Below, piece after piece: positions 35,266-53,188 of a stretch of 64,000 nucleotides of DNA. Origin of the DNA: Oceanococcus sp. HetDA_MAG_MS8 (lineage in GTDB: Bacteria; Pseudomonadota; Gammaproteobacteria; Nevskiales; Oceanococcaceae); assembly GCA_019192445.1 (NCBI GenBank), contig JAHCMK010000001.1:434001-498000 (forward strand), read 5' to 3'. Every line of letters starts with the position of its first letter. The stretch's first letter is position 1. The notes beneath the pieces were generated by a model. It was given only the letters and a program-made list of their open reading frames with translations, searched no databases and was not told the origin of the DNA. Position numbers and translations under genes: made by a program.

Positions 35266-36510
35266 TCATTGAGGCGAGAGCAAATGCTGGGCAATGGCTT
35301 CGGCGGAGGCGCAAGCACTCTCCAGCAAGGGCACGCCGCGCGCCGCATAGGAGCCGCAGAACCACAGCCGGCGTTGGCTGGGGCTTTGCCGCATGGCGGC
35401 CTGAAGACTGGCAATGGCTTTGCTGCTGCGGGTGTTGATTAAGGGGCGGGGGAATTCGGCTTCGGCCTCGATACGGCGTGGTTCGCACAAGGGGTTCCAG
35501 CTCTGGAACACGTTTTCGGCCTGGGTCTGCACCGGCAGTACGCGATTCAGCCAAATGGTGGCCATAGGGCGCTGGCCTTGGCGGTCGGCTCGAAAATTCA
35601 CGCTGCTCCAATCGCGTGATTTTTGCGGCATAAGATTGGCGTCTTTGTGCACCACCACGCGGCTGTTCACATACTCGAACTGCTGTAGCAGCTGGCGCTC
35701 GGCGCTGTGGCGCTTGGTAAGTAATGCCGCCGACACCGGGGCAGGGGTGGCCAGAATGACGTGGTCGAAGTCTTCGGCGCTGCCATCTTCGTGACGTAGC
35801 TGCACGCCTTCGGCGGTGGCCTCCACCTCAGAAACGCGGGAGTCCAGATGCAGGCTGTGCAGCTTTTGGCTGAGAGTTTGCACCACGGTATCGGCGCCGC
35901 ACACGGTGCGATGCACGGGGCTGTGGAGGATACCGCGGCGTAAGTAATCAATGACTTCGCGCGCCGGGGCCTGGCGAATATGCTGCAAGTCGCAGGTATG
36001 AATGGCGGCAAAGCTGGGGTAGAGAAACTGCTCGCAAAAGCCGCTGCTATAGCCGCGCTCGGTCAGGTAATCCTGCAGCGCCACATCGGCGCTGGGCAGC
36101 TGACTTGTGCGGTGATGAGTGAGCAGTAGACGGCCAAGATCGGTGGCGATATGGCGACCGGGCTTGCTAAGCAGGTCGCCTGCTGGCACCAGTGGCAGCG
36201 AGACTTGGGGCAGGGGGCGCCAGTTCTGGTAGCGAAAATAGCTCTGGCCCTCCACATCGCAAAAACAGGCTGAGTAATCGGTGGGCGTGGTGGCAATGCC
36301 GGCATCGGCGTATAGCGCTAGCAGGCTGGGGTAGTAGGCGGGGTAGATCACCCGCAGGGGGATATCTACGCGGGCGCCACCAAAAGAAAGGCCGTGCGCG
36401 GCCATTCCCAATCGCGGGTGGCGTTCATACAGGCTGATGTGGTGGTGTTGCCCAAGTCGGTAGGCGGCGGTCAGGCCAGACAGCCCACTGCCAATAATCG
36501 CGATTCGCAT
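35266..36510 (-). CDS. FAD-dependent amine-oxidase-fold oxidoreductase
   Basis: A 414-residue flavoprotein. The dinucleotide fold MRIAIIGSGLSGLTAAYRLGQHHHISLYERHPRLGMAAHG opens the protein and a C-terminal GSYAARGVPLLESACASAEAIA closes the FAD site. The middle resembles the COG2907-type predicted NAD/FAD-binding proteins, often found with cyclopropane-synthase-like methyltransferases and acting on lipids. Here it also pairs with a methyltransferase. It may modify an unsaturated lipid; that is inference from context. Confidence 0.85.
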   Translation of the reverse strand: MRIAIIGSGLSGLTAAYRLGQHHHISLYERHPRLGMAAHGLSFGGARVDIPLRVIYPAYYPSLLALYADAGIATTPTDYSACFCDVEGQSYFRYQNWRPLPQVSLPLVPAGDLLSKPGRHIATDLGRLLLTHHRTSQLPSADVALQDYLTERGYSSGFCEQFLYPSFAAIHTCDLQHIRQAPAREVIDYLRRGILHSPVHRTVCGADTVVQTLSQKLHSLHLDSRVSEVEATAEGVQLRHEDGSAEDFDHVILATPAPVSAALLTKRHSAERQLLQQFEYVNSRVVVHKDANLMPQKSRDWSSVNFRADRQGQRPMATIWLNRVLPVQTQAENVFQSWNPLCEPRRIEAEAEFPRPLINTRSSKAIASLQAAMRQSPSQRRLWFCGSYAARGVPLLESACASAEAIAQHLLSPQ

Positions 36511-36735
36511 GCGCCAAGGCTGCTCAGGGTGAGAGCTGGCGTCAAGTGTTTTACTAATGGCCAGGCCCTAAATGACGCGGGCACCCACTGCCAGTTCACA
36601 CACATGTGTTGCCCAAAGTGGCCGCGCAGGAGACTGGGGGGACTCCAGCCGACCATTCAGGACAAGGCATGTGATGTTGACTGGCTTTTGGCGATGGGGT
36701 GCCCGCATCCTCCGGAAAAGTGTGTGTGGTTGTAA

Positions 36736-38100
36736 TTACAGGCCGCGACCACTGATGCCGGCATACACAAACTGCGGATAGCCGGGGCTGCCGTTTTGGT
36801 CGTAGTACTCACGCATTTGCAGCTTGTAGTTGTTGCCGTCGCGGCCACGTACCACATACACCACATCGCGGGCGGAAATATGGTGGATGCCGTTGCCGTC
36901 ATCGCAGAAGCCGCTGTAGTAGTACCAGCCGAAATCGCTATCAATCCCTCCACATGCCGCGCGGCCGGTGTTCTCGGCTGGGGGCTGAGTCACCATGGCC
37001 AGGCCGGAATCGGTGTCTTGATGGAAGTTGGCATCTGCCGGTACCCCGGCAAGGGCTGCGTAATCTTCGCGCAGCATGTCGTGAATGCCGACATTGGCCG
37101 GGCCAGAGGAGCCTCCGTTGAGTTTGATGTCGGTACGCCGGAAAGCCAGATCCCAGTTGCTGTCGGCATTATCGGGCTGTACCTGCACGGCGTTGAGCAG
37201 GTCGATGTACACCCACAGCTGCTCATCGGAAGCATTGGCGGTGACTCGCTGGCTTTGGCCATCTCCGGCATCGGTAAATTCCACCCGGCCTTGGGGTGCC
37301 GGGCCGCCCTCGGCAGCCGCCGAGCTACACTCGCGCCCGCTGATTTGGTCTAGATCAAAAGCCGGAAAGCCGGGGTTGCCTTGGGCATCGTTGTAGCCGG
37401 TCATGCGCAGTTTGTAGTAACGGCATTCCACGCTGCGCATGATAAAAGCGGCGTTTTCGCGGGGGCTAATCATGTTGCCGCTGGCAGTGCCGCTGTCGCG
37501 ATACCAGCCGTAATCACCGGCGCCCGTTGCGGGGTCGGGTTCCTGGTCGGCCGCGGGAACACGTGTCATGGCGTAGTTGATGTCACCACCGCCGAGCAGT
37601 GGCGGCAGGCCCGGAATCAAGGCCTCTAGCGGGCCCTCTTCGGTGGTGTCGGTGACATACTCCACCGCGCCGGGTGGTGGTGCTTGTGTGATGTCTTCCC
37701 AGGGATAGGGTGTGCCTTCGGGCTCCTTATCGCCGTAAACCACCACCTCTTGGCCATTGGGGTTGCCGCTGGCGCCGCCATTCAAGGCGATGTTGCTGCC
37801 GTTAAAGGCCAGGTCCCAGTCCTCACTTTGGGCCGGGTCGGCGGGAAACACCTGGGTTTGGCTTTCCAGATCCAGGTAAATCCAGGTGTCGCTATTGGCA
37901 CTGACCACGCCACTGACAAAGCCATTGGGGTTCTGGGAAATTTGGATTTGCGGGCCGCCGCGTTGGGAAAGTGGTGGGAGGTCGTCCGATTGACCCAGAG
38001 CAGGATCGCTGCCCGTGCCCACGGGGGAAATGTCACCTGCGCAGGCGACGATAAACAGTGAGGACAGCAGGGCCAGGAATGGGGGAGTGTGTTGGCTCAT
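36736..38100 (-). CDS. HmuY-family heme-binding-type lipoprotein with two domains
   Basis: A 454-residue exported lipoprotein: signal peptide PFLALLSSLFIVAC with the lipobox cysteine near residue 20. Two HmuY-like domains follow in tandem, each with the same landmarks: WIYLDLESQTQV / WVYIDLLNAVQV, DWDLAFNGSNIALNGGASG / NWDLAFRRTDIKLNGGSSG, and YYKLRMTGYNDAQGNPGFPAF / NYKLQMREYYDQNGSPGYPQF. Single-domain HmuY captures heme for its TonB receptor. Here the domain is duplicated. Its ATG overlaps the receptor stop codon, so the two are translated together. Confidence 0.88.
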   Translation of the reverse strand: MSQHTPPFLALLSSLFIVACAGDISPVGTGSDPALGQSDDLPPLSQRGGPQIQISQNPNGFVSGVVSANSDTWIYLDLESQTQVFPADPAQSEDWDLAFNGSNIALNGGASGNPNGQEVVVYGDKEPEGTPYPWEDITQAPPPGAVEYVTDTTEEGPLEALIPGLPPLLGGGDINYAMTRVPAADQEPDPATGAGDYGWYRDSGTASGNMISPRENAAFIMRSVECRYYKLRMTGYNDAQGNPGFPAFDLDQISGRECSSAAAEGGPAPQGRVEFTDAGDGQSQRVTANASDEQLWVYIDLLNAVQVQPDNADSNWDLAFRRTDIKLNGGSSGPANVGIHDMLREDYAALAGVPADANFHQDTDSGLAMVTQPPAENTGRAACGGIDSDFGWYYYSGFCDDGNGIHHISARDVVYVVRGRDGNNYKLQMREYYDQNGSPGYPQFVYAGISGRGL

Positions 38101-40079
38101 AGCAGCTCCTTACGAATTTCGATGAGGAATTGACGGGGGGCGATGGGTAAAAACTGGGCGTCACCGGCATCCAGCAGGTTTTCTCCGCCGGCTGCGAGGG
38201 TCCACCCTGGAAGCAGGCTCTTGGGTTGCCATTCCAAGCGCAGGTCCAGCAGGGTGTAGTCGGGCGCCGTACCCGCCGCGGTGGGTGGGCCGCCACTGTC
38301 TAGCTCCAAGTTGAAGATCCGCTCGTCCACCCATTGCGAGCGGAGTACGGCTTCAAACTCGCCCACACGGTGCCGGGCCTGTAAGCCGAAGCGATGGGGT
38401 GCACGGCCACTGAGTTCGCCGCCATTGCTGCGGTTTTCGGTGCGCAGCCGGCTGTAACTGAACTCCAAGCGGGTGGCGGATTGCGGTTCCCAGGCCAGCA
38501 GGGCGTCGGCGCCGAATATGCGGGCGGTTTGCACGTTCTGGTAGGTGAAAATGGTGGGTGGGCCTGGCTCGGAGGTGACGATTTCGATGAGGTCCTCACC
38601 CAAGGTGGCGTAGGGCTGTAAGGAGAAGGTCCAGGCGTAATGGGGCATCCAGGTCCAGGCCAGCTGAAAGCTACGACTGCGTTCGGGTTGCAGATTGGGG
38701 TTGCCGTCCACGCGGTAGCCCACACTGGTGTTTTCAAAGCGCAGCAGTAGCTGTTTGAAGTCCGGTGCCCTAAAGCCTTCGCCATAGGAGGCGCGCAGGG
38801 TGTGTCTGGGGCTGGGGTCCCAGCGCAGGGCAAGTTTGGGGGTGAGGGCATCACCAAATTGGGAGTCGCGGTCATAGCGCAGACCAGACACCACGGTGAG
38901 GCCGGGGCGTAGGGCCCAATCATCTTGAAGGTATACCGCCTGCCGGTCTCGCTCCCCAGGCACGTTGAGCCGGTCGGCTTCGAGGGCTTCGAACTGGTAT
39001 TCGGCGCCAATACTCAGTGTGCGTGCGCCGAGTTGCCAATCATATTGAGCACCGGCCACAAACAGATCGTCGATGGTGCGTTCGTCCAGGGTGGCATCGG
39101 GGTTGCCATCTTGGGTTTGCACAAATTGGTCGTCGTAGCGGGAAAAGCGCAGGTTGGTTTTCAGGTCGCCGCTGTCCCACTGCCATTGCGGGCTGAGGCC
39201 TATGCGCCAGTCCTCGATACGTTTTCGGGTTTGCAGCTGGCGCCCGGCGGTACCGCTGAGGTCGCGGGCCTGGTCTTCGATATCGTATTCCAGGTTGATA
39301 TCCACATGGCTGCGCTCACCACTGAACCAGCGGCCCTGAAGCTGGCCAAAGGCGGCTTCACTGTCCAGGCCATCGCTTTGCGCGCGGCTGCCATCGATGT
39401 TGTAGCTATCTTGCTCGACCGCGCCCACGGTGGCTTCCAAGCGCAGCTTTTCCCATTCATGGCCCTGACGCAGGCTGATATCCCGCGAAAAGCTTTGCGC
39501 ACGAGCCACCAATTCACCGGGTTGCAAGGCGCCATTGGTAATGATGTTGATGACTCCGCCCAAGGCATCGGAGCCATAAAGGGCTGAGCTTGGGCCCTTC
39601 ACAATTTCGATCTGGCGGATATTCGTGGTTTTGAGCCGGCGCAGGTCCACCGCCCCATTGATACGCCCGTTGATGCGTTGGCCGTTAATCAGAATGAGCA
39701 CCGACTCGGAACTCAGACCCTGCATTTCAATGCGCGAGCCGCGCCCTGCTTGGGGCACCACGTACACGCCGGGCTCGATGCGTAGAAGCTCGTCTACGTC
39801 GGTAGCGCCGCTACGACGAATACGCTCCTGCGGAATCACCTGAACCACCACCGGGCTTTCATCCAGAGTTTTTTCGGTACGGGTACCGGTTACTACGATG
39901 GTTTGCAGTGCGACTTCCGTCGATTGACCTGCTTCCTCGCTGTCTTCCAGCGTGGATTGAGGGTCATCCGATTCCTCTAAGGCGATGGTGGCATAAGGAG
40001 CAGGCTGCGCCCCGACCATGGGGCACAACAAGGCTAGGGCGGCACCAACAGTGCCGCCCTTGAGGCAGAGTTTGATCAC
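38097..40079 (-). CDS. TonB-dependent receptor of the HmuY-linked iron/heme uptake operon
   Basis: A 660-residue outer-membrane receptor. A signal peptide (GGTVGAALALLCPMVGAQ) is followed by the TonB box region TIVVTGTRTEK. The plug domain has RIRRSGATDVDELLRIEPGVYV and IEIVKGPSSALYGSDALGGVINIIT, and the beta-barrel has the usual SYGEGFRAPDFKQLLLRF near residue 435. The start is a GTG overlapping the DUF6607 stop (GTGA). Cargo is inferred to be heme or an iron complex from the HmuY partner and the Fur-like box upstream. Confidence 0.92.
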   Translation of the reverse strand: MIKLCLKGGTVGAALALLCPMVGAQPAPYATIALEESDDPQSTLEDSEEAGQSTEVALQTIVVTGTRTEKTLDESPVVVQVIPQERIRRSGATDVDELLRIEPGVYVVPQAGRGSRIEMQGLSSESVLILINGQRINGRINGAVDLRRLKTTNIRQIEIVKGPSSALYGSDALGGVINIITNGALQPGELVARAQSFSRDISLRQGHEWEKLRLEATVGAVEQDSYNIDGSRAQSDGLDSEAAFGQLQGRWFSGERSHVDINLEYDIEDQARDLSGTAGRQLQTRKRIEDWRIGLSPQWQWDSGDLKTNLRFSRYDDQFVQTQDGNPDATLDERTIDDLFVAGAQYDWQLGARTLSIGAEYQFEALEADRLNVPGERDRQAVYLQDDWALRPGLTVVSGLRYDRDSQFGDALTPKLALRWDPSPRHTLRASYGEGFRAPDFKQLLLRFENTSVGYRVDGNPNLQPERSRSFQLAWTWMPHYAWTFSLQPYATLGEDLIEIVTSEPGPPTIFTYQNVQTARIFGADALLAWEPQSATRLEFSYSRLRTENRSNGGELSGRAPHRFGLQARHRVGEFEAVLRSQWVDERIFNLELDSGGPPTAAGTAPDYTLLDLRLEWQPKSLLPGWTLAAGGENLLDAGDAQFLPIAPRQFLIEIRKELL

Positions 40080-41137
40080 GGGTTGCTAGCGACCTGGGTG
40101 TTGGCCACGGGGGTGAGTACCACGGCATCACCCAGTCGAGTGTGTTCTTCCAACGCCGTGGTCATGTCGCTATTCCAGTCTTCCGGCCCTTCGACTTGAC
40201 CGGCGTAGACCAGACCCGCAATGGCGAACATCTTGCCCCAGAGGGTGCGCTCGTCTTTGCTCACGGCTAGTTGAACGGGTTGCGAACCATCCATCTGGGT
40301 GTTCCACCAGGCTCGTACGTCCGCCCAGAAGCTGTTCGTTTTGTCCCAGTAGTCGTATCCGGCTTGCATGTCGTGTGCGTCGCTGCGCACATAGGCGTTG
40401 AAGCCGCGTTCCCGGGCTAGAACATCGCTGGTGACGCTGTCGCCCTCGCGTGGATGCAGTACGCGCTTCATGTTGTCTTGTTCATGCAGCCAACCAGCGG
40501 GTGTGAGCAGGTGCACGTTGCGGGCGACCAGAACGTCGTAGTCATCCCGTTTGGTCCATTCCCGGCGGGGTAGGGGGCGACCGGTTTCGTCGCCTTCCCA
40601 GCGCGACCAATTGTCACCATGGTGCCAACGGCCAACGCTTTGGTAACGGGGGCTATCATCCACTTGCCACACCGTTTGCACCCAGGCACCACGGGATTGG
40701 GCCTCGCTCAGTTCTTCGGGCACCCAGGTTTGATGGCCATCAATAGGACCAAGGTAGCGGTAGACCACCTCCCGCTCGTAGTGCCAGTCTTGACGCCAAT
40801 GCTTAACCACACTGCCGTCTTCGCCGGTGACCAAGATGTGCTGCAGAGAAATAAACTCCGGCTCGCTCTCCAACACCGTGACGATCTCGGTGGCGGTAGC
40901 GTGGTAGGGCTTTTTCAGCTCATAGCCGGGCGTCAGCGCGGCTGTCTCTTCAAAGCGAAAGTCCACATCAAACTCACCCACCATGGCGAGGATGGCGGCG
41001 CGGTCTTGTTCACGCTTGGTGTCAGATGCGGTGTCTTGGCTACCTTGCGGCAGTACGGCGCATGCGCTGAGTACAGCGGTTAGGGCAAGTGCACCAGCAC
41101 TACGGAGCAGTGCTTGGCGGCGGGAAAAGGTGGGCAT
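40076..41137 (-). CDS. DUF6607-family lipoprotein
   Basis: A 353-residue exported protein that heads the HmuY/TonB-receptor operon. The N-terminus FSRRQALLRSAGALALTAVLSAC combines a twin-arginine-like SRRQALL with a lipobox, so Tat export followed by lipidation is possible. The body is rich in Trp, Asp and His (HWRQDWHYEREVVYRYLGP, GRWHHGDNWSRWEGDETGRPLPRREW) as in DUF6607, a family seen beside heme/iron receptors. Function is unknown. Start 41137 has GGGGAG 7 bp upstream. A TTG at 41167 is rejected. Confidence 0.85.
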   Translation of the reverse strand: MPTFSRRQALLRSAGALALTAVLSACAVLPQGSQDTASDTKREQDRAAILAMVGEFDVDFRFEETAALTPGYELKKPYHATATEIVTVLESEPEFISLQHILVTGEDGSVVKHWRQDWHYEREVVYRYLGPIDGHQTWVPEELSEAQSRGAWVQTVWQVDDSPRYQSVGRWHHGDNWSRWEGDETGRPLPRREWTKRDDYDVLVARNVHLLTPAGWLHEQDNMKRVLHPREGDSVTSDVLARERGFNAYVRSDAHDMQAGYDYWDKTNSFWADVRAWWNTQMDGSQPVQLAVSKDERTLWGKMFAIAGLVYAGQVEGPEDWNSDMTTALEEHTRLGDAVVLTPVANTQVASNP

Positions 41138-41168
41138 GTGTCGGCTCCCCAATAAAGCAAATGGCAAT

Positions 41169-41187
41169 AGGAACGATTCGCATTATA
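41169..41187 (-). promoter_or_regulatory. Fur-like box upstream of the HmuY operon
   Basis: On the minus strand TATAATGCGAATCGTTCCT matches the 19-bp Fur consensus at 12 positions. It lies 32-50 bp before the DUF6607 start codon, where a Fur-repressed promoter would be expected. Confidence 0.6.
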
Positions 41188-41299
41188 AGTACGCCGTTAT
41201 GCTGTTGCAAAGCGCCGGTGTTCATATGCTTAGAACAAATGACACAGGATGGTTATAGGAACCTTTCGGAATAAGAGACAAGGCTCTACAATTCGCCCC

Positions 41300-42076
41300 A
41301 TGGATAAATTTCGTCGCGAGCGCGTGCTGAGCGTTCATCATTGGAATGAAGACCTTTTTAGCTTCCGGACGACGCGGGATCCCGGCCTGCGCTTTGAGAA
41401 CGGCCAATTCATCATGGTCGGCTTGGAGCATGAGGGCCGGCCGCTCATGCGGGCTTACTCCATCGCCAGTGCCAACTGGGAGGAGGAGCTAGAGTTCTTC
41501 AGCATTAAAGTCCAGGACGGGCCACTTACCTCCAAGCTGCAGCATATCCAGGTGGGTGACGAGATCATGCTCTCGAAGAAACCCACAGGGACCCTGCTGA
41601 TCTCCGACCTCAATCCCGGGCCGCGCCTGTATTTGCTGGCCACCGGTACCGGTCTAGCGCCGTTTATCTCCATCATCAAAGACCCGGAGACCTACGAGCG
41701 CTTCGAGACCGTGATTGTTACGCACGGCGTGCGCCGGGTGTCGGATCTGGCCTATCACGACTTCATCACCAAAGAGCTGCCCGAACACGAGTACCTCGGT
41801 GAGATGGTGCGCAAACAGTTGCGTTATTACCCCACGGTCACGCGGGAGCCTTATCGCCATCAAGGCCGGCTGACCGAGCTGCTAGCCACTGGGAAAATGT
41901 GCAAAGACCTGGGCTTGCCCCCGATTAACCCCGAACATGATCGGGCCATGATTTGCGGCAGCCCCAGCATGCTGGCCGATTTCCGCCACATTCTGGACGA
42001 GCACGGGTTTCAGGTGTCCAAGTTCATTGGCGATACGGGCGACTACGTTTACGAGCGGGCCTTTGTCGAGAGCTAG
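41300..42076 (+). CDS. fpr: Ferredoxin/flavodoxin-NADP+ reductase
   Basis: A 258-residue FAD enzyme that exchanges electrons between NADPH and ferredoxin or flavodoxin, often induced by oxidative or iron stress. The FAD motif is RAYSIAS, the NADP loops are LLATGTGLAPFISII and THGVRRVSDLAY, and CGSPSML plus the short VYERAFVES tail mark the bacterial subclass I (Azotobacter/Rhodobacter) type. Start at ATG 41300; the longer frame to 41249 has no support. It is divergent from the Fur-box operon. Confidence 0.93.
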   Translation: MDKFRRERVLSVHHWNEDLFSFRTTRDPGLRFENGQFIMVGLEHEGRPLMRAYSIASANWEEELEFFSIKVQDGPLTSKLQHIQVGDEIMLSKKPTGTLLISDLNPGPRLYLLATGTGLAPFISIIKDPETYERFETVIVTHGVRRVSDLAYHDFITKELPEHEYLGEMVRKQLRYYPTVTREPYRHQGRLTELLATGKMCKDLGLPPINPEHDRAMICGSPSMLADFRHILDEHGFQVSKFIGDTGDYVYERAFVES

Positions 42077-42102: not shown

Positions 42103-42816
42103 ATGTCCGCACTCTGGCAACGGCGCTGCCGGGCTTTGCATCGCGGGCTCGCTGCCGTGGTTGGCGTGCAGTTGCTATTTTGGGTACTCGGCGGTCTAAC
42201 CATGGCCAGCCTGAACCTAGAGCGTGTGCGAGGGGCTGACCGCCGCGCCCAGCAGCCGCAAGCCAGCCTGAACTGGGAGCACATTCTTACTCCGGAAATA
42301 GCCTTAAAGCGAGCGGGTGTTACGGAGCCAGTGCAGTCCTTGCATCTGGAAACGCGTTTGAATCAGCCGCTTTACCTTGCCAATGCGAATCAGCAGCGTT
42401 GGCTGATTCACGCGGAAGATGCTCAGCTGTGGTCTCCACTGAGCGAGGAACGTGCGGTGGCAGTAGCCCTCGCGGATTATTCTGCATCGGCCACTGTGGA
42501 AAAGGTGGAATGGGTGGAGACGGCTGGCACCGAATACCGGGGGCGCGAGCTACCCTTATGGAAAGTGCAACTGACGGACGCACGTAGAACGGCTTTGTAT
42601 GTCGACCCCTTCAGTGCAGAAGTCGTCGCGCGGCGGAATCGTTATTGGCGGATATTCGACTGGATGTGGATGCTCCACATCATGGATTACCGCCAGCGTG
42701 ATGACTTCAATCATCCGCTACTCGTGGTATTTGCGGGTACGACTCTGGCCTTTGTCGTCAGTGGTGCCAGCCTTTTGTTCTTTGCCTGGCGACGGGGCCG
42801 AAACAAACCCGCTTAG
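42103..42816 (+). CDS. PepSY-type membrane protein
   Basis: A 237-residue protein with an N-terminal transmembrane helix (HRGLAAVVGVQLLFWVLGGLTMA), a periplasmic region of ~150 residues and a C-terminal helix (PLLVVFAGTTLAFVVSGASLLFFAW). The region before the last helix, YVDPFSAEVVARRNRYWRIFDWMWMLHIMDY, is the usual end of PepSY-associated membrane proteins of the PiuB/iron-regulated group. It follows fpr by 26 bp, so a redox or ferric-reductase role near the iron operon is plausible but unproven. Confidence 0.8.
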   Translation: MSALWQRRCRALHRGLAAVVGVQLLFWVLGGLTMASLNLERVRGADRRAQQPQASLNWEHILTPEIALKRAGVTEPVQSLHLETRLNQPLYLANANQQRWLIHAEDAQLWSPLSEERAVAVALADYSASATVEKVEWVETAGTEYRGRELPLWKVQLTDARRTALYVDPFSAEVVARRNRYWRIFDWMWMLHIMDYRQRDDFNHPLLVVFAGTTLAFVVSGASLLFFAWRRGRNKPA

Positions 42817-42879: not shown

Positions 42880-43920
42880 ATGGCCACCATGGCATCTGCG
42901 CAAAACTCTCACCCTTCGGCTCCTCCCGTTGTTGGGAAGCTCATCCTTGCTCTTGTTTCAGCGCTGAGTCTATTTGCGTGTGGAGGAGGGCGTCCTGCGG
43001 ATGGGGAGGCTGTGGTGCTAGACCTCAATCAGCCACGCGTCATGACTTTTAATGCGGGCACCCCCGATTGCGACGACAATAGCAATGCCGATTACAGCTG
43101 TGCCGACGCCGACACTGCCAGTGAATGGTATGGAACGGGGCTCGCCCATCTGGCGTTGATCGCGGACGTCAAAGCGTTCATGGCGATCCAAAAACCAGCT
43201 GTGGTGGCCTTACAGGAAGTCTTCCACCCGCCTCTTTGTGCTGAAATTCCGCCGGAGCATCATGCCGGCTTCATCTGTGAGCGTTGGCAGTCTGGGGACC
43301 CCAGCGTTGCTCAAGAAATACTAGGGCCGGAGTATCAGGTGGCTTGTCATCAAAACCGTCCGGATAAATGCGCCGCTGTACATAACTCTTTCGGTCGCTT
43401 TGAAGGCTGTTCCACGGCTTTGTGTCTGAATGGCTTGGACGGTGGGCAGAGTGATGATTGCGGGGGTGGCACAAGGGTTGGGCGCGGACGCATTCTGCGA
43501 CGAGATGGTCAGGCGCTCACCCTGGTGAGCGTGCACGGGACCTCTGGGGTCACACTGGAGGATCAAAGCTGCCGCGTGGAGCAGTTTGAGCAAATCTTCG
43601 TAGACCTTTTAGATGGCAGTGGTCAGCCCGCGGTTGGTGGGGTGGAGAACCTCGTCATGGGAGATCTGAACACCGACCCTGGTCGTTTTGCCTTGATTGA
43701 CGCAAGTGCTGCGCGCTGGAATGAATTTGTTGGGCCCAACCTGCCGTTCCAAATGGTGACGCCCGTGGGGCTACTGTCCACGCCCACCTACCTGAATCTG
43801 ATCAACATCGACCACATCGCTAGCGATGCTTACTCCGGTGATTGCTTTGTTGGGGTGCCCAGCGATGAAACCGCTTTTGATCATCAACCCATCATCTGTG
43901 ACCTGAACCCCAGGCAATGA
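42880..43920 (+). CDS. Endonuclease/exonuclease/phosphatase-fold lipoprotein
   Basis: A 346-residue protein with a signal peptide ending LVSALSLFAC, so a lipoprotein. The EEP fold is shown by MTFNAGT, the metal-binding ALQEVF, MGDLNTDP and the final INIDHIASDA ... AFDHQPIIC. An exported member could be a nuclease, sphingomyelinase-like phosphodiesterase or phosphatase. Seven or more cysteines in the mature part suggest disulfides outside the cytoplasm. An in-frame ATG at 42889 is an alternative start. Confidence 0.82.
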   Translation: MATMASAQNSHPSAPPVVGKLILALVSALSLFACGGGRPADGEAVVLDLNQPRVMTFNAGTPDCDDNSNADYSCADADTASEWYGTGLAHLALIADVKAFMAIQKPAVVALQEVFHPPLCAEIPPEHHAGFICERWQSGDPSVAQEILGPEYQVACHQNRPDKCAAVHNSFGRFEGCSTALCLNGLDGGQSDDCGGGTRVGRGRILRRDGQALTLVSVHGTSGVTLEDQSCRVEQFEQIFVDLLDGSGQPAVGGVENLVMGDLNTDPGRFALIDASAARWNEFVGPNLPFQMVTPVGLLSTPTYLNLINIDHIASDAYSGDCFVGVPSDETAFDHQPIICDLNPRQ

Positions 43921-47586: not shown

Positions 47587-50454
47587 ATGGCGCGGTGGAA
47601 TGAAGCTTGCCTCCGAGCCACAGTCCCCTGGTATAGCCGTATGGTTCGGCGCACACATTTGAGCAAGCCCTCCCAAGAGAGCGCAGTATCACCGTCGGCC
47701 GGCCAAAATAGCCTGCCTCGCTGGCGCCGACAGGCCCTGGCCAGATTGGGCCAAGTGACCTGGTCGCATTTCTCGCCCCACTCGCAACGCTTTGAAACGC
47801 CGGTGCAGCGGGCGATGCGCTTGCTATTGACGGAATTTCCCTTGGTTTCGGTTGAGCTGGTGGACTTTCAGCGGCGCAGCGGCTGGGTCACGCATGCCAG
47901 CGACGCAGGGCATGCTGTGGGCATGGCCCTTGATTTTGTGGGGCTGGTTGATGCTGAGGGTGAGGTAGCCTACGTATCCACCCGTCACCCGCATCGTTCT
48001 GGCGTGGGGCAAGCGCGGGATGCGTCGGCGGACTCGGCCATTCAAAACCTGCTAGGGCGCGTGGACTGTCATCAGCAAGGGCAGGTGGATACCTTGCTGT
48101 GTTGCCGCTTGAAACCTGGGTTACAGCAACCGCGCTTGTCGGCGGGGCAGACGCAACGCTTCGCAGTCTATGCCGACATTGTTCTAGACGGCCTTGCGCT
48201 GGCCCGTGAGCGAGCGAAGGCGCAGGTCTTAGAAGAACAAGCGCAGCGTACAGATGAGTTACTGAGTCAATTTGAACAGCTGAGCCCGGTTGGGCATTGG
48301 CGACTCGATGTGAATACAGCAGCCGTCCAGGTGTCTGCTGGAGTCAACGCCATTTACGGCATTCCGCCGGGGAACCTGGACCGGCCGCAGGTGGGTATTT
48401 CCTATTACGTTCCCGCGGATGCTCTCGTGATAGAGCGGTATGTTCAGGCCATTGTCGCCGGCGACATTGACCATTTCGATTTACAACTCTCTTTGGTCGA
48501 TGCCGACTCCAATCGCCGCAGTGTTCGCACCACCGCGCGTCGGATGGGCTCACAAGTGGTGGGCACCTTGCAGGACCTCTCTGAGGCAGCCCTGCAAAAG
48601 TGTGTCATTGAGCAGTGCCTGCAGAACCTGGACATGGCAACGTGGGTGCTTGATACCCGCGGGCATTTACTCAGCTGCAATGGGCTTGCACAGCAGTACT
48701 GCCACATATTAGGAGTGCCATCCGACAAGGGTCTGTGGCCGAGTGATTGGTGCTTCGTGGATAGAGGCTTTCAGAGTGAGTTGGCCTTACAAATCTCCCG
48801 CGCCTATCGCGGGAAGGGTGGGGAGTTGGCCACTCCCAAAGCCGTTCTTGATCACTCCAAACTCATTGTAGAACCCATCTTCAACGCTGAGCAGGTGGTG
48901 CTGGGAGTTCGAGTGCAACTGCAAACCATGCCAAGCAGCATGGTGCAGCGGGAGGATGAGCTTATCGCTGCCATGCGGCTACTAGGGATGGGCACTGTGC
49001 ATTGGTCTCCGCTCAATGGGGCGGTTCGGGCCGACCAGGCAGCGCTGAGGCTACTGGGCGTGAAAAATAAGCTGGGTTCGGTCACTTTGGAGCAGCTATT
49101 GTCCAAGCTGGATCACAAAGACCTGAAACAGCGTGAGGCGGCCATAGTGGAATTATGTTCCGGACGAAGCCCAGTGTATCGATGCCAGTACCGGATTCAG
49201 CTTGGCGATGATTGTTTTCGCGATATTGAGGAACTGGGGACGATTGTGGCGCGCTCGGCAGATCGTGCTCCGGCGAATGTGCTGAGTGTGCTGCACGACA
49301 ATACGGCCCGTAACCAAGATCGTTATGCGCTCAAACTTCTTGAGCAACGATTCCAAGGGGCCTTCGAGCACTCCGGCATTGGCATGGCCATTGTCGGGCC
49401 AGATGGTAGCTGGGTGCGTGTGAACCCCCGCATCTGTGAAATCGTTGGTTATACGGAAGATGAGCTGTCTCGGCTGACCTTCCAAGACATTACTCATCCT
49501 GACGACTTGGAAAACGACCTCAGCCTGCTTGCCGAGCTCGCGGCGGGAAAACGTGCCAGCTACCAAATGGAGAAGCGCTACTTTCACAAAAACGGTAGCT
49601 TGGTGCATATCCTGTTGTCGGTGTCAGCCGTGCGGGACGACGTCGGAGAGGTGGTCCACTATGTCTCCCAGATCATTGACATCACCCAGCTCAAACAGGC
49701 CAAGGCTGAACTTGAGCGGTTGCTCCGTGTTGCCGACGCGCAGAACGCCTGGCTCAAGCAGTTCGCCCACATCGTGTCCCACAACTTGCGTTCACACAGC
49801 AATGGTTTGAGTGGCTTGCTGGCATTACTGACCGAAGATGTGCCCGAGCTAGAAGACCTGCGTGCCGGACAGTTGCTGAAGTCCTCCTGTGAGCGGCTCA
49901 GCGAAACCATTAGCGACTTAACGGAGGTTGTCCGTGTTCATATGAGCGATGGTGAACTCAGCTCGGTTCCCCTGGCAGAGTTTGTACAGCGGGCGGTGGA
50001 CTCCCTCGCTGGCGTACTCAAGGATTCCATCATTGAGATTGATGTAGATCCCGATATTGTTGTGCTTGGGGTCCGGGCCTTCATCGACAGCCTTTGCCTG
50101 AACATGATCACCAATGCCTACAAGTACAAGCACCCTGAGCGACGATTGCATTTGCAGGTGCGGGCGCGAGAGCAGGGCGACAGTGTAGAGATTGACTTCA
50201 GTGACAATGGCCAGGGTATTGCCCTAGACCGGGTTGGAGACCGTCTGTTTGGGCTGTACCAAACCTTTCATACGCATCCGGATTCACGCGGCGTTGGCTT
50301 GTTTTTGGTGAAAAGCCAAGTGGATGCTATGGGTGGCAGCATTAGCGTGCAGAGCCGGCCCGAAGAAGGCACAACCTTTCAGGTGAAGCTACGCAATGCG
50401 CTACGGCAGCATGTCAGTGAGGCCGCCGAAACTAAAAGCTTAGGTTCCAGTTAA
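47587..50454 (+). CDS. Orphan multi-PAS sensor histidine kinase
   Basis: A 955-residue cytoplasmic sensor without transmembrane helices. Order: an N-terminal GAF-like region (~60-210), four PAS-like modules (~225-330, 345-450, 460-575, 585-710; the last is clearest: GIGMAIVGPDGSWVRVNPRICEIVGYTEDELSRLTFQDITHPDD cut to its landmarks), then a histidine kinase. The H-box is HIVSHNLRSHSNG, a SHNLR type. ATP-binding motifs are NMITNAYKY, FSDNGQGIAL and GVGLFLVKS. No response regulator is adjacent. The start could be ATG 47641. Its 3' end overlaps the convergent TonB-receptor gene by 23 bp. Confidence 0.85.
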   Translation: MARWNEACLRATVPWYSRMVRRTHLSKPSQESAVSPSAGQNSLPRWRRQALARLGQVTWSHFSPHSQRFETPVQRAMRLLLTEFPLVSVELVDFQRRSGWVTHASDAGHAVGMALDFVGLVDAEGEVAYVSTRHPHRSGVGQARDASADSAIQNLLGRVDCHQQGQVDTLLCCRLKPGLQQPRLSAGQTQRFAVYADIVLDGLALARERAKAQVLEEQAQRTDELLSQFEQLSPVGHWRLDVNTAAVQVSAGVNAIYGIPPGNLDRPQVGISYYVPADALVIERYVQAIVAGDIDHFDLQLSLVDADSNRRSVRTTARRMGSQVVGTLQDLSEAALQKCVIEQCLQNLDMATWVLDTRGHLLSCNGLAQQYCHILGVPSDKGLWPSDWCFVDRGFQSELALQISRAYRGKGGELATPKAVLDHSKLIVEPIFNAEQVVLGVRVQLQTMPSSMVQREDELIAAMRLLGMGTVHWSPLNGAVRADQAALRLLGVKNKLGSVTLEQLLSKLDHKDLKQREAAIVELCSGRSPVYRCQYRIQLGDDCFRDIEELGTIVARSADRAPANVLSVLHDNTARNQDRYALKLLEQRFQGAFEHSGIGMAIVGPDGSWVRVNPRICEIVGYTEDELSRLTFQDITHPDDLENDLSLLAELAAGKRASYQMEKRYFHKNGSLVHILLSVSAVRDDVGEVVHYVSQIIDITQLKQAKAELERLLRVADAQNAWLKQFAHIVSHNLRSHSNGLSGLLALLTEDVPELEDLRAGQLLKSSCERLSETISDLTEVVRVHMSDGELSSVPLAEFVQRAVDSLAGVLKDSIIEIDVDPDIVVLGVRAFIDSLCLNMITNAYKYKHPERRLHLQVRAREQGDSVEIDFSDNGQGIALDRVGDRLFGLYQTFHTHPDSRGVGLFLVKSQVDAMGGSISVQSRPEEGTTFQVKLRNALRQHVSEAAETKSLGSS

Positions 50455-53188
50455 GGCTGTACCGCCGGCCGAGCAGTCGGTAGGTGGCCACATCGGTATT
50501 GGCGTCGTCGGCATTGATCACCAGCGGTGGCTGGGTATCGGTGAGGTTGCCAATGACCGCCGTAACGTCCCAGCCACTGGTACTCCGCCAGCTCAGACTG
50601 AGGTCATGGTAGCTGCGCGAAGAGATCCGCCGCTGGCTGCCAGCAAACAGGTCTCCACCGCGCTCGTCCATGCCATGGATGTACTGCAGCGAATACAACC
50701 AGCGCCAAGCCCCGGTGCTCGCTTGCAGGCTGTATAAGCCGGTCCATTGGGGGATGGCGCCGACATCTGGGGAGTACTCACCGGCACTCGCAAGTGCCGG
50801 CACATTGGGCTCCGTCCGGATTTGCCGCTCGATGATGTGACTCAAGAGCAAACGATGCGCCAAAGACCAGGAGCCGAGCCGGGGCCGCCAGCTGGCCTCG
50901 ATGTCTAGGCCCTGCACCCGATCCTGGGCAATGTTGCTCAAGGGGCTGTTGATTTGCAGAAGTCGACCCTGATCGTCGCGTTGTATACGAGCGCAGGCAT
51001 TGAGGTCGGCATTCGTGATGCATTGACGCAAAATGGACTCTGCGCTTAAGCCAGCAATGGCTTGGTCTATATCAATATCAAAGGCTGCCAGCCTGACTTG
51101 TGTTTGGTTGTTCGGGGACCAGTCCAAGCTAAGGCGCCATGTTTGGGCGGTTTCAGGCCGCAGCGCGGTGCTTCCGCCGCTCAACAATGGCACTTCGTTG
51201 CCATTGTCGGAAAAGCTCCCATCCGCGGGCACACCCTGATTGACGCAGCGTTGCTGCTCCTCGGGCGCCAAGTTGTTGAAATCAGCACAAGGGTCGTTCA
51301 CGGCGGGATTCGTCTGACTGACGCCGGCGAAGAGCTCACCTACAGTTGGCGTGCGATAAGACTGCGCATACCCTGCGCGGGCTATCAGTCCGGGTGCAAG
51401 CTGTAGCCTAAGGCCTGCATCAACAACGGCGCGCGGAGAAAACAAACTGGTATCGAGCACCCGCAAGCCGAACTCGGCTTGAAGTCCTTGTTGGGTGATG
51501 GCGTTCCGCCACACCGGCACGCCCATCTCTAGGTAGACCTCTCGGGAACGAAAACTCCCTCGCGTAGCAGCACGCGCAGCGCCGGTAGTAGCTCCGGTTT
51601 GGGTTAACTCCGCCGGGATATCGCGTGCTTCCTCAGCGCGCCATTCTAGTCCCCAGGCCAGCTCTAGAGGGCCAGCGGCCAATTGCGCCAAATCACGCCT
51701 AGCGTCCCAGTTCACTAGCGTTTGTGCATTGCTAAAACTATCGCGCAGTGGGGCAATGCCAGCGTAGTCCAGCATCTCCTGGCTAATGGAGCCTGGTCCA
51801 CCAAAGAGGTTCAGCGGTATACAGCCCTCAATGGCTAGCTCGGGACTGTCGCAGCGTGGCTGGCCGTCCTCGTCACGAAAGGAAGGCCCCAAGGCCAGCT
51901 GTAGGCGATCCCGCCGCAGGTCTCCGCTTTGAATTTGCTCCACCCGGTTCTGCCCATAACTCAGCTGCGCGGACCACTCCCACTGCGCCCAACTTCCTTG
52001 GGCGCCAAGTTCAGTGCGCCATAGCCGTGCTTGTTGTGAATAGCGTCGTGGTCCCGCCTCCACCAAACGTCGGCGAACATCCACCAACTCCTCGCCAAAG
52101 GGATTAAACAGGTTGTCAGCCGCAACGCTGACGCCGGGAAGGCGATTGGTGAAAAATGGGAGCGGAGCCAAAGTGGTACTGGACTCACGGTTTTGCAGCA
52201 GCCCGCGCGCATAAATGTCTAAGTGCTCAAACCCCTGATAGTTCCAACTGCCAAATAGCGACTGGCGCTGGTTGTCCTGAACAAGGTCCTCAAAGGGGTT
52301 GTAGTTGAATCGGTCGCTGTTGACACCGTTGTTGATGAAGGGACGGAAGTCATCAGGGGATGTGCCATCTTCACCATCAATCAGGGTCAATCTGCCCTGG
52401 CTGGTGCGGTAGTTACCCGCGGGCGGCGCTGAGGAAATGCCCCTGCTAAACACAACATTCTGGGGACCCTGAACCGATAACTGATCCGCTGAGTAACGTC
52501 GATCGGCCTTGCCCACCGGGCTTTGTCGATTGAGCTGAGCGGCCAAAAACCAATGCTGATCCTGCCCTGACTGTCCCCAGCTGGCATTGGCCTGCCATTG
52601 CTGGCCGTCTCCGCGCTCTGTCAGGCTGCCGCTGATACCAAAGGAAGCCCCCTTAGCTTGCTTATGGGTGATGATGTTTACGACTCCGGCGACGGCATCC
52701 GCGCCATACTCAACAGACGCACTACCGCTCAGAACTTCTACTGCGGCTACAGCGCTTAGCGGCAAGCTGGCTAAGTCCACGACACCGGCAGTGCCGTTGC
52801 CGCCAGCAATGAAGCGACGACCATTCACCAGAATCAAACTGCGCTGGCTGCCCAAGCCGCGCATATCCAGCGTTTCTATGCCGCGGGAGAGGCCCCCGCC
52901 TGCGCCCCGAGCCCCGACGCCCGTATTCAATGGGGACCCGATCATTTGTGGCAATAGCTGTAGAAGCTGGCCTAAGTTCTGGGCTCCGGTGTTGATCAGC
53001 TCATCGACCTCGATCCGCACAATGGGGCGCTCACCACCAGCTTCGGCAGATAAACGCGTACCTACGACGGATAAAGACTCAAGTTCGTAGGGTTGGCCTG
53101 GCTGGGTTGTCTCTGCTGCCAAGGCGGGGCCGGCAACGCAGCTGGCACCACATGCGAGCGCGAGCGCGCAGACGACTGTGCGGGTCAT
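50432..53188 (-). CDS. TonB-dependent receptor (large, Xanthomonas/Caulobacter-type)
   Basis: A 918-residue outer-membrane receptor: signal peptide CALALACGASCVAGPALAAE, TonB-box region LESLSVVGTRL, and a plug with LGQLLQLLPQMIGS, GSQRSLILVNGRRF and VEVLSGSASVEYGADAVAGVVNIIT. The long barrel includes RAGYAQSYRTPTVGELFAG and ends RYSLNWNLSF with the terminal aromatic residue. Receptors of this length often take up complex organic substrates. No substrate-linked gene adjoins it, so cargo is unknown. No Fur-like site was recognised upstream. Confidence 0.92.
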   Translation of the reverse strand: MTRTVVCALALACGASCVAGPALAAETTQPGQPYELESLSVVGTRLSAEAGGERPIVRIEVDELINTGAQNLGQLLQLLPQMIGSPLNTGVGARGAGGGLSRGIETLDMRGLGSQRSLILVNGRRFIAGGNGTAGVVDLASLPLSAVAAVEVLSGSASVEYGADAVAGVVNIITHKQAKGASFGISGSLTERGDGQQWQANASWGQSGQDQHWFLAAQLNRQSPVGKADRRYSADQLSVQGPQNVVFSRGISSAPPAGNYRTSQGRLTLIDGEDGTSPDDFRPFINNGVNSDRFNYNPFEDLVQDNQRQSLFGSWNYQGFEHLDIYARGLLQNRESSTTLAPLPFFTNRLPGVSVAADNLFNPFGEELVDVRRRLVEAGPRRYSQQARLWRTELGAQGSWAQWEWSAQLSYGQNRVEQIQSGDLRRDRLQLALGPSFRDEDGQPRCDSPELAIEGCIPLNLFGGPGSISQEMLDYAGIAPLRDSFSNAQTLVNWDARRDLAQLAAGPLELAWGLEWRAEEARDIPAELTQTGATTGAARAATRGSFRSREVYLEMGVPVWRNAITQQGLQAEFGLRVLDTSLFSPRAVVDAGLRLQLAPGLIARAGYAQSYRTPTVGELFAGVSQTNPAVNDPCADFNNLAPEEQQRCVNQGVPADGSFSDNGNEVPLLSGGSTALRPETAQTWRLSLDWSPNNQTQVRLAAFDIDIDQAIAGLSAESILRQCITNADLNACARIQRDDQGRLLQINSPLSNIAQDRVQGLDIEASWRPRLGSWSLAHRLLLSHIIERQIRTEPNVPALASAGEYSPDVGAIPQWTGLYSLQASTGAWRWLYSLQYIHGMDERGGDLFAGSQRRISSRSYHDLSLSWRSTSGWDVTAVIGNLTDTQPPLVINADDANTDVATYRLLGRRYSLNWNLSF

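Follow-up and report, generated by a model that had tools for sequence, protein, structure and literature searches.

Introduction

A haem uptake system with a haemophore, a TonB-dependent receptor and a HmuY-named protein has been studied experimentally in Riemerella anatipestifer, a bacterium of ducks. There, a bidirectional promoter with a Fur box serves the haemophore gene rhuH on one side and rhuR, which encodes the receptor, and rhuA on the other (PMC11967795). All three genes were raised under iron limitation by 4.7, 3.8 and 4.5, taken to be log2 changes, and B739_1417 was named HmuY (PMC5429918); this gene is RhuA (PMC10434265). Here we describe an operon in a stretch of 64,000 nucleotides of Oceanococcus sp. 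HetDA_MAG_MS8 (contig JAHCMK010000001.1, positions 434,001 to 498,000), called the window, which encodes a DUF6607 lipoprotein, a TonB-dependent receptor and a HmuY lipoprotein with two domains. Because R. anatipestifer has rhuH, rhuR and rhuA/HmuY, the operon repeats the three kinds of part of a haem system that has been studied experimentally, and its overlapping genes probably form an iron-controlled haem-scavenging system.

RhuH binds haem through His96 with a dissociation constant of 3.44e-11 M, and the exchange His96Ala weakens the binding by about six orders of magnitude. It removes haem from haemoglobin, and cells release it in outer-membrane vesicles; its homologues are described as predominantly from Weeksellaceae and Flavobacteriaceae (PMC11967795). 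In the HfpR-HfpY system of Flavobacterium psychrophilum, the receptor and a haem-binding HmuY are likewise encoded in a single operon regulated by iron, receptor first, but a DoxX-family gene lies between them, no DUF6607 belongs to the operon as described and haem titrated 1:1 (PMC9331221). HmuR-HmuY of Porphyromonas gingivalis shares the HmuY signature and the partnership with a receptor, but this HmuY uses the ligands His134 and His166 and hmuY stands ahead of hmuR (PMC6200708). It is a single-domain protein (3h8t chain, 191 residues), whereas the HmuY of the window has two domains.

Layout of the operon

All three genes are on the minus strand, in the reading order DUF6607, receptor, HmuY.

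40076..41137, minus strand: DUF6607 lipoprotein, predicted RhuH-family haemophore, 353 amino acids, ATG start (PF20311, PDB 8xjc match, model, conservation)
38097..40079, minus strand: TonB-dependent outer-membrane receptor, 660 amino acids, GTG start (Plug and barrel, HmuY-linked clade)
36736..38100, minus strand: two-domain HmuY lipoprotein, 454 amino acids, ATG start (PF14064 in two stretches)

They are joined by two 4-bp overlaps, as an earlier note on this DNA had reported. The overlap of the DUF6607 and receptor genes (40076-40079) reads GTGA and that of the receptor and HmuY genes (38097-38100) reads ATGA. An alternative longer DUF6607 start, TTG at 41167, sits about at the expected transcription start.

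The operon appears to be a gammaproteobacterial counterpart of RhuH/RhuR/RhuA with all genes in a single unit, since its DUF6607 protein matches RhuH and since RhuH shares a promoter with receptor and HmuY-named genes. Common to both are a DUF6607-family haemophore, a TonB receptor, a HmuY-named gene, a Fur box in the promoter, putative in the window, and a histidine as haem ligand, here a predicted one. The window has one overlapping operon, whereas the R. anatipestifer genes form a divergent pair. The DUF6607 protein of the window has a lipobox, whereas RhuH is said to have no membrane anchor (PMC11967795). The HmuY of the window is double. The name HmuY for RhuA is that of the paper (PMC5429918).

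The DUF6607 protein and the RhuH haemophore family

The DUF6607 protein matched Pfam PF20311 with 244 bits (cut-off 27). A search of solved structures matched its residues 40-300 to PDB 8XJC, which is RhuH of R. anatipestifer, at E 2.8e-48, and the two proteins are 34-35% identical. An AlphaFold2 model computed from 68 sequences had a mean pLDDT of 88.3. Its best match by far was 8xjc_A (Z 34.1, rmsd 1.9 A, 273 residues); the next matches, with Z near 9 to 10, included a phycobiliprotein lyase, spirocyclases and nitrobindins. The earlier note had called DUF6607 uncharacterised and had proposed a structure prediction to look for a haem or siderophore pocket. The model matches a crystallised haemophore, and the 8XJC match in the sequence search rules out that DUF6607 is a protein of unknown kind. 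Judged from sequence and model, the protein is a member of the RhuH haemophore family, solved in 2025.

The haem ligand His96 of RhuH corresponds to His113 of the window protein, a residue shared by all 68 aligned proteins and the predicted axial haem ligand of the DUF6607 beta-barrel. The residue numbers of the RhuH paper agree with the printed 8XJC chain. Five propionate contacts of RhuH (Arg143, Tyr144, Arg170, Arg183 and Gln198) come from a predicted complex (PMC11967795), and four of the five are present in the window protein. Arg143, Tyr144 and Arg170 correspond to Arg164, Tyr165 and Arg192, each invariant in all 68 proteins, and Gln198 corresponds to Gln220; Arg183 aligns with an alanine that has an arginine adjacent to it. 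In Pfam (models up to 2025), DUF6607 has no assigned function; the link to RhuH gives the family a name. In the open-access literature, a search returned no paper naming DUF6607 and, among the matches listed since 2025, RhuH was named only in the RhuH paper, which does not show absence from print.

The signal sequence of the protein, FSRRQALLRSAGALALTAVLSAC, has a lipobox with a Tat-like (twin-arginine) RR, in agreement with the earlier note. A simple pattern found a lipobox in 12 of the 22 DUF6607 proteins of the relatives' genomes (window included) and in 34 of the 80 loci of the contig scan described below; it overlooks at least 2 of the 22 in which a lipobox is visible by eye. RR and lipobox were flagged together only in the window and in locus L061, where they lie upstream of the start. 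A role for the Tat-like motif was dropped, as the motif was not seen in the relatives scanned.

DUF6607 might serve a step of haem uptake other than the capture of haem at the surface, which we regard as unlikely. The lipobox would suit such a step, and the HemS-like and receptor neighbours found elsewhere suit any step of haem uptake. A search for Slam found no surface-export factor, a weak negative because its control matched in no genome. The related RhuH, which has the same fold, occurs in outer-membrane vesicles and can extract haem from haemoglobin (PMC11967795), which argues for the surface, yet RhuH is the protein said to be unanchored.

A second form of DUF6607 (L102, L104, L113 and the relatives L073-L079) has no recognised lipobox, and its domain is preceded by a segment like APRGGTTxG. 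At several of these copies a close TonB receptor is missing. DUF6607 was also seen as short fragments, perhaps decayed copies, at G061:C1:2594458-2594916 and G052:C2:43406-43630.

The two-domain HmuY protein

Pfam found HmuY (PF14064) in two stretches of the last protein, with 125.7 bits in all. The N- and C-terminal domains are 30% identical, their profiles match each other with 100% probability and both match HmuY 3h8t (E 3.6e-15 and 9.2e-6), so that the two HmuY domains of the earlier note were found again. A double HmuY is usual among the relatives examined. By the domain matches as read, two HmuY-like regions were present in 21 of the 22 HmuY frames of the first locus set, window included (exception L099), and in 9 of the 10 class-wide frames (exception L181), which rules out a local oddity. 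An open-access literature search returned no description of a two-domain or tandem HmuY, the sole match being a double mutant, and this is not proof of absence from print.

In the two exceptions, HmuY stands ahead of the receptor, its frame of about 790 codons shows one clear HmuY region, and the receptor falls outside the HmuY-linked clade. The genome of the window (G000) has a second pair of TonB receptor and double HmuY at L080 (G000:C9:17000-31000), which belongs to the other subclade; its only DUF6607 is the copy in the operon. In many HmuY proteins of the window's subclade, CAGDISP or a similar segment follows the lipobox cysteine and is perhaps a sorting signal (window 36736-38100, L081, L083, L088-L090, L092 and L094).

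The candidate ligands are unequally distributed over the two domains. In the window's subclade, His360 and His406 of the C-terminal domain are invariant (14/14; L081 is in the C-terminal set only). The N-terminal domain has no invariant His or Met, the best column being Met233 with 11 of 13. Because of the two invariant histidines, haem ligation by the C-terminal domain of this subclade is likely. For the N-terminal domain, docking or stabilisation is more likely than haem binding by a conserved pair. A model of the C-terminal domain made from a single sequence was unusable (pLDDT 35).

The earlier note had proposed a "two-headed" haem binder. The HmuY signature in both domains agrees with this, and the "two-headed" part has become doubtful because only the C-terminal domain has invariant histidines. 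Haem binding by both domains, and hence two haem sites in a single protein, would fit the shared signature and the known HmuY ligands, which vary between His and Met pairs (PMC11967795). Set against this is the difference between Met233 and the invariant His360/His406, and we rate two haem sites as improbable.

The TonB-dependent receptor

The receptor has a TonB barrel (PF00593, 176 bits) and a Plug domain (PF07715, 93 bits). A quick tree placed it inside a clade of 29 receptors, all HmuY-linked; outside this clade are the HmuY-linked receptors of L099 and L181 and 26 sampled receptors that stand beside DUF6607 without HmuY. The receptor and DUF6607 trees are both quick trees with several weak branches and warnings on letter composition. 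By its clade, the receptor is classed only as a putative HmuY-partner receptor.

Haem receptors usually have a histidine between the FRAP and NPNL boxes, as does HmuR of P. gingivalis. The window receptor has both boxes and no histidine between them, and the same holds for 9 other HmuY-linked receptors with both boxes. A search for the FRAP-NPNL pattern failed to find it in 19 of 28 HmuY-linked receptors and in 8 of the 26 DUF6607-adjacent ones; a histidine between the boxes was seen in 3 of these 26. HfpR keeps the receptor motif only partly (PMC9331221).

The receptor also bears on the question of whether the operon imports another porphyrin or tetrapyrrole, such as a chlorophyll-derived, metal-free or cobalamin-like compound, instead of haem. 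NCBIfam models, among them those for haem and haemoglobin receptors, matched below cut-off, with the haem model (199.6 bits) close to the B12 model (197 bits). Among solved chains, those closest to the receptor include the colicin I receptor, BtuB and PhuR, and the absent histidine as well as the distant fold matches of DUF6607 named above would also be compatible with another tetrapyrrole. Against this, RhuH binding needs the iron-ligating His96, kept in 68/68, and the affinity of RhuH for metal-free protoporphyrin IX is about six orders of magnitude lower than for haem (PMC11967795); the Fur-like site described below suggests iron as the goal. We consider this alternative very unlikely and keep haem as the preferred substrate.

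A further, larger TonB-dependent receptor of 918 amino acids is encoded in the window at 50432-53188.

Genomic context in relatives

HmuY was present in 24 of 146 relatives, and the regions of 20 genomes were examined (G056, G064, G071 and G082 were left out). In a sample of the class, HmuY was found in 14 and DUF6607 in 10 of 369 genomes; the HmuY regions of 10 of the 14 were examined, three being already in the set and G350 left out. Receptor and HmuY were neighbours with the same orientation in 19 of the 20 regions of relatives, with the receptor first in 18 (reversed in L099; no receptor found in L096), and in all 10 class-wide regions, with the receptor first in 9 (reversed in L181).

A contig scan for DUF6607 gave at least 590 relatives, of which the best 80 were kept, with uneven taxonomy. 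Most of these 80 loci are titled Pseudomonadota and some other phyla, and many come from metagenome bins, where contamination is possible. A TonB receptor lay within 1.2 kb of DUF6607 in 42 of the best 80 loci, which is 0.23 per kb compared to 0.020 farther out (11 times), and in 11 of 20 further regions of relatives.

In 10 loci (9 of Lysobacteraceae, 1 of Rhodanobacteraceae), a HemS-like gene stands between the receptor and DUF6607. Its profile matched HemS-family structures in 7 of the 9 matches listed (best E 2.1e-5); with Pfam HemS, only 3 of the 10 members matched, and these marginally (best E 0.027). The HemS-like genes (L170:9364-10002, L176:9161-9937 and 8 similar ones) mostly have a C-terminal Cys-Cys-Cys motif. 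The Lysobacteraceae clusters resemble the window in that DUF6607 lies beside a receptor in a haem context, but no HmuY was found nearby and the receptor is of another lineage. The links to TonB receptors and to the HemS-like gene would allow the annotation of many marine and soil genomes, with SAR86 less certain.

In the order, which was covered by 85 genomes, DUF6607 was found in 25 and HmuY in 23. Among the genomes with both families, the two are neighbours in two, G000 and G002. A third case is G369, where DUF6607 is convergent to the receptor-HmuY pair with a methyltransferase-like gene between them; this gene (L180:8769-9434), recognised by eye, directly follows HmuY. The couplings in G000, G002 and G369 stand at separate places in the receptor tree and in the DUF6607 tree, and the starred branches of the latter force at least 2 changes. 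In our reading, DUF6607 would have been coupled to HmuY pairs repeatedly, with R. anatipestifer as a further case. Since G000 and G002 belong to one family, these two may instead be explained by descent with replacement.

Regulatory region

Two putative control elements were found upstream of the DUF6607 gene.

41169..41187, minus strand: Fur-box-like site, TATAATGCGAATCGTTCCT, agrees with the classical box at 12/19 positions; top-ranked in the 64 kb by the relatives' matrix
41182..41210, minus strand: sigma-70-like promoter, TTGCAA-17-TATAAT, consensus match only

The 12/19 box that the earlier note had seen is present, but the match by itself is not significant. When the dinucleotides of the intergenic region were shuffled 500 times, 95 shuffles equalled it, and matches of at least 12 occurred in 31 of the 789 tiles of 162 bp in the window, so that it was dropped as evidence by itself. 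Because a gamma-type Fur consensus had been drawn up after the sequences of the window and of some relatives were known, we relied on a matrix that excludes the window. This was made from 7 receptor-upstream sites of relatives reaching at least 13/19 (8 of 29 upstream regions reach 13; the near-duplicate L097 was dropped). By this matrix, 41169-41187 ranked first of all positions in the 64 kb. Sites reaching 13/19 were found in 8 of the 29 upstream regions of relatives compared to 67 of 1160 random stretches.

A promoter search of 36500-41400 found two overlapping variants, where 1.4 were expected from shuffles. The Fur-like site overlaps the -10 element of this only promoter-like match. The putative site suggests that iron is the goal of the operon, and from the layout we infer co-transcription under Fur control.

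Proposed haem relay

The operon is very probably a haem (or haem-protein) acquisition system of the RhuH/RhuR/RhuA kind. Under iron shortage, Fur would leave the -10 site and the three genes would be co-transcribed, coupled by their start-stop overlaps. The DUF6607/RhuH lipoprotein may then capture haem in its beta-barrel, with His113 as the axial ligand, and pass it to the C-terminal domain of the HmuY lipoprotein, where His360 and His406 are candidate ligands. By analogy with HmuY-HmuR and with RhuA acting through RhuR, HmuY would hand the haem to the receptor for TonB-dependent import. Haem capture under iron control, as put forward in the earlier note, thus stays the best reading of the operon, with DUF6607 now assigned to a family and the "two-headed" binder weakened.

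A more specific version is only tentatively proposed. Here the RhuH-type lipoprotein would strip haem from proteins at the surface and relay it to the C-terminal HmuY domain, and the N-terminal domain would have lost haem binding and serve as the dock for the receptor; Gammaproteobacteria would have paired both folds more than once, in parallel to Bacteroidota. If this were true, two haem-binding folds of separate origin would work in one operon. A pairing built repeatedly and in parallel to Bacteroidota would therefore make the transfer from RhuH to HmuY a general two-stage design.

Several results weigh against the reading as a haem system of the RhuH/RhuR/RhuA kind. HmuY was near none of the best 80 DUF6607 loci (HmuY profile, flanks up to 10 kb) and near 2 of the 25 DUF6607 genes of the order, the contigs of G064 and G082 being too short to tell. 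Both families occurred in 8 of the 85 genomes of the order compared to 6.8 expected, which is no enrichment. None of the 11 SAR86 DUF6607 genes had a receptor within 1.2 kb, and no HemS was found in the window's genome by a search whose control matched in E. coli. In the second HmuY subclade, to which the pairs of G002 and G369 belong, no column has at least 60% His or Met, in an alignment of 15 rows of which 3 had unaligned N-terminal domains. The histidines of the window's HmuY do not align with the presumed His134/His166 of P. gingivalis HmuY, which were located in the 3h8t chain by their 32-residue spacing. To these come the missing histidine between the receptor boxes and the export of the lipoproteins to the surface, a presumed step. 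The value of the finding is the naming of DUF6607 and a testable relay, and it raises the question of whether haem is passed between RhuH- and HmuY-type proteins.

Neighbouring genes

A divergent gene shares the intergenic region with the operon.

41249..42076, plus strand: ferredoxin-NADP-reductase-like flavoprotein (PF00970, PF00175)

Its start is more likely near 41300, and NF008178 matched with 141.9 bits, below the cut-off of 390. The flavoprotein may be linked to haem. Downstream of it, a PepSY-TM-like protein is encoded at 42103-42816, possibly a part of iron or haem reduction. The flavoprotein profile matched in 1 of 40 regions of relatives besides the window (L089) and in 0 of 10 class-wide regions, and the PepSY profile in 0 of 40 and 0 of 10, so that both genes were ruled out as conserved parts of the operon. 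The protein of 346 residues encoded at 42880-43920, which had no Pfam or NCBIfam match at E 0.1, looks by eye like an endonuclease/phosphatase and has a lipobox-like start.

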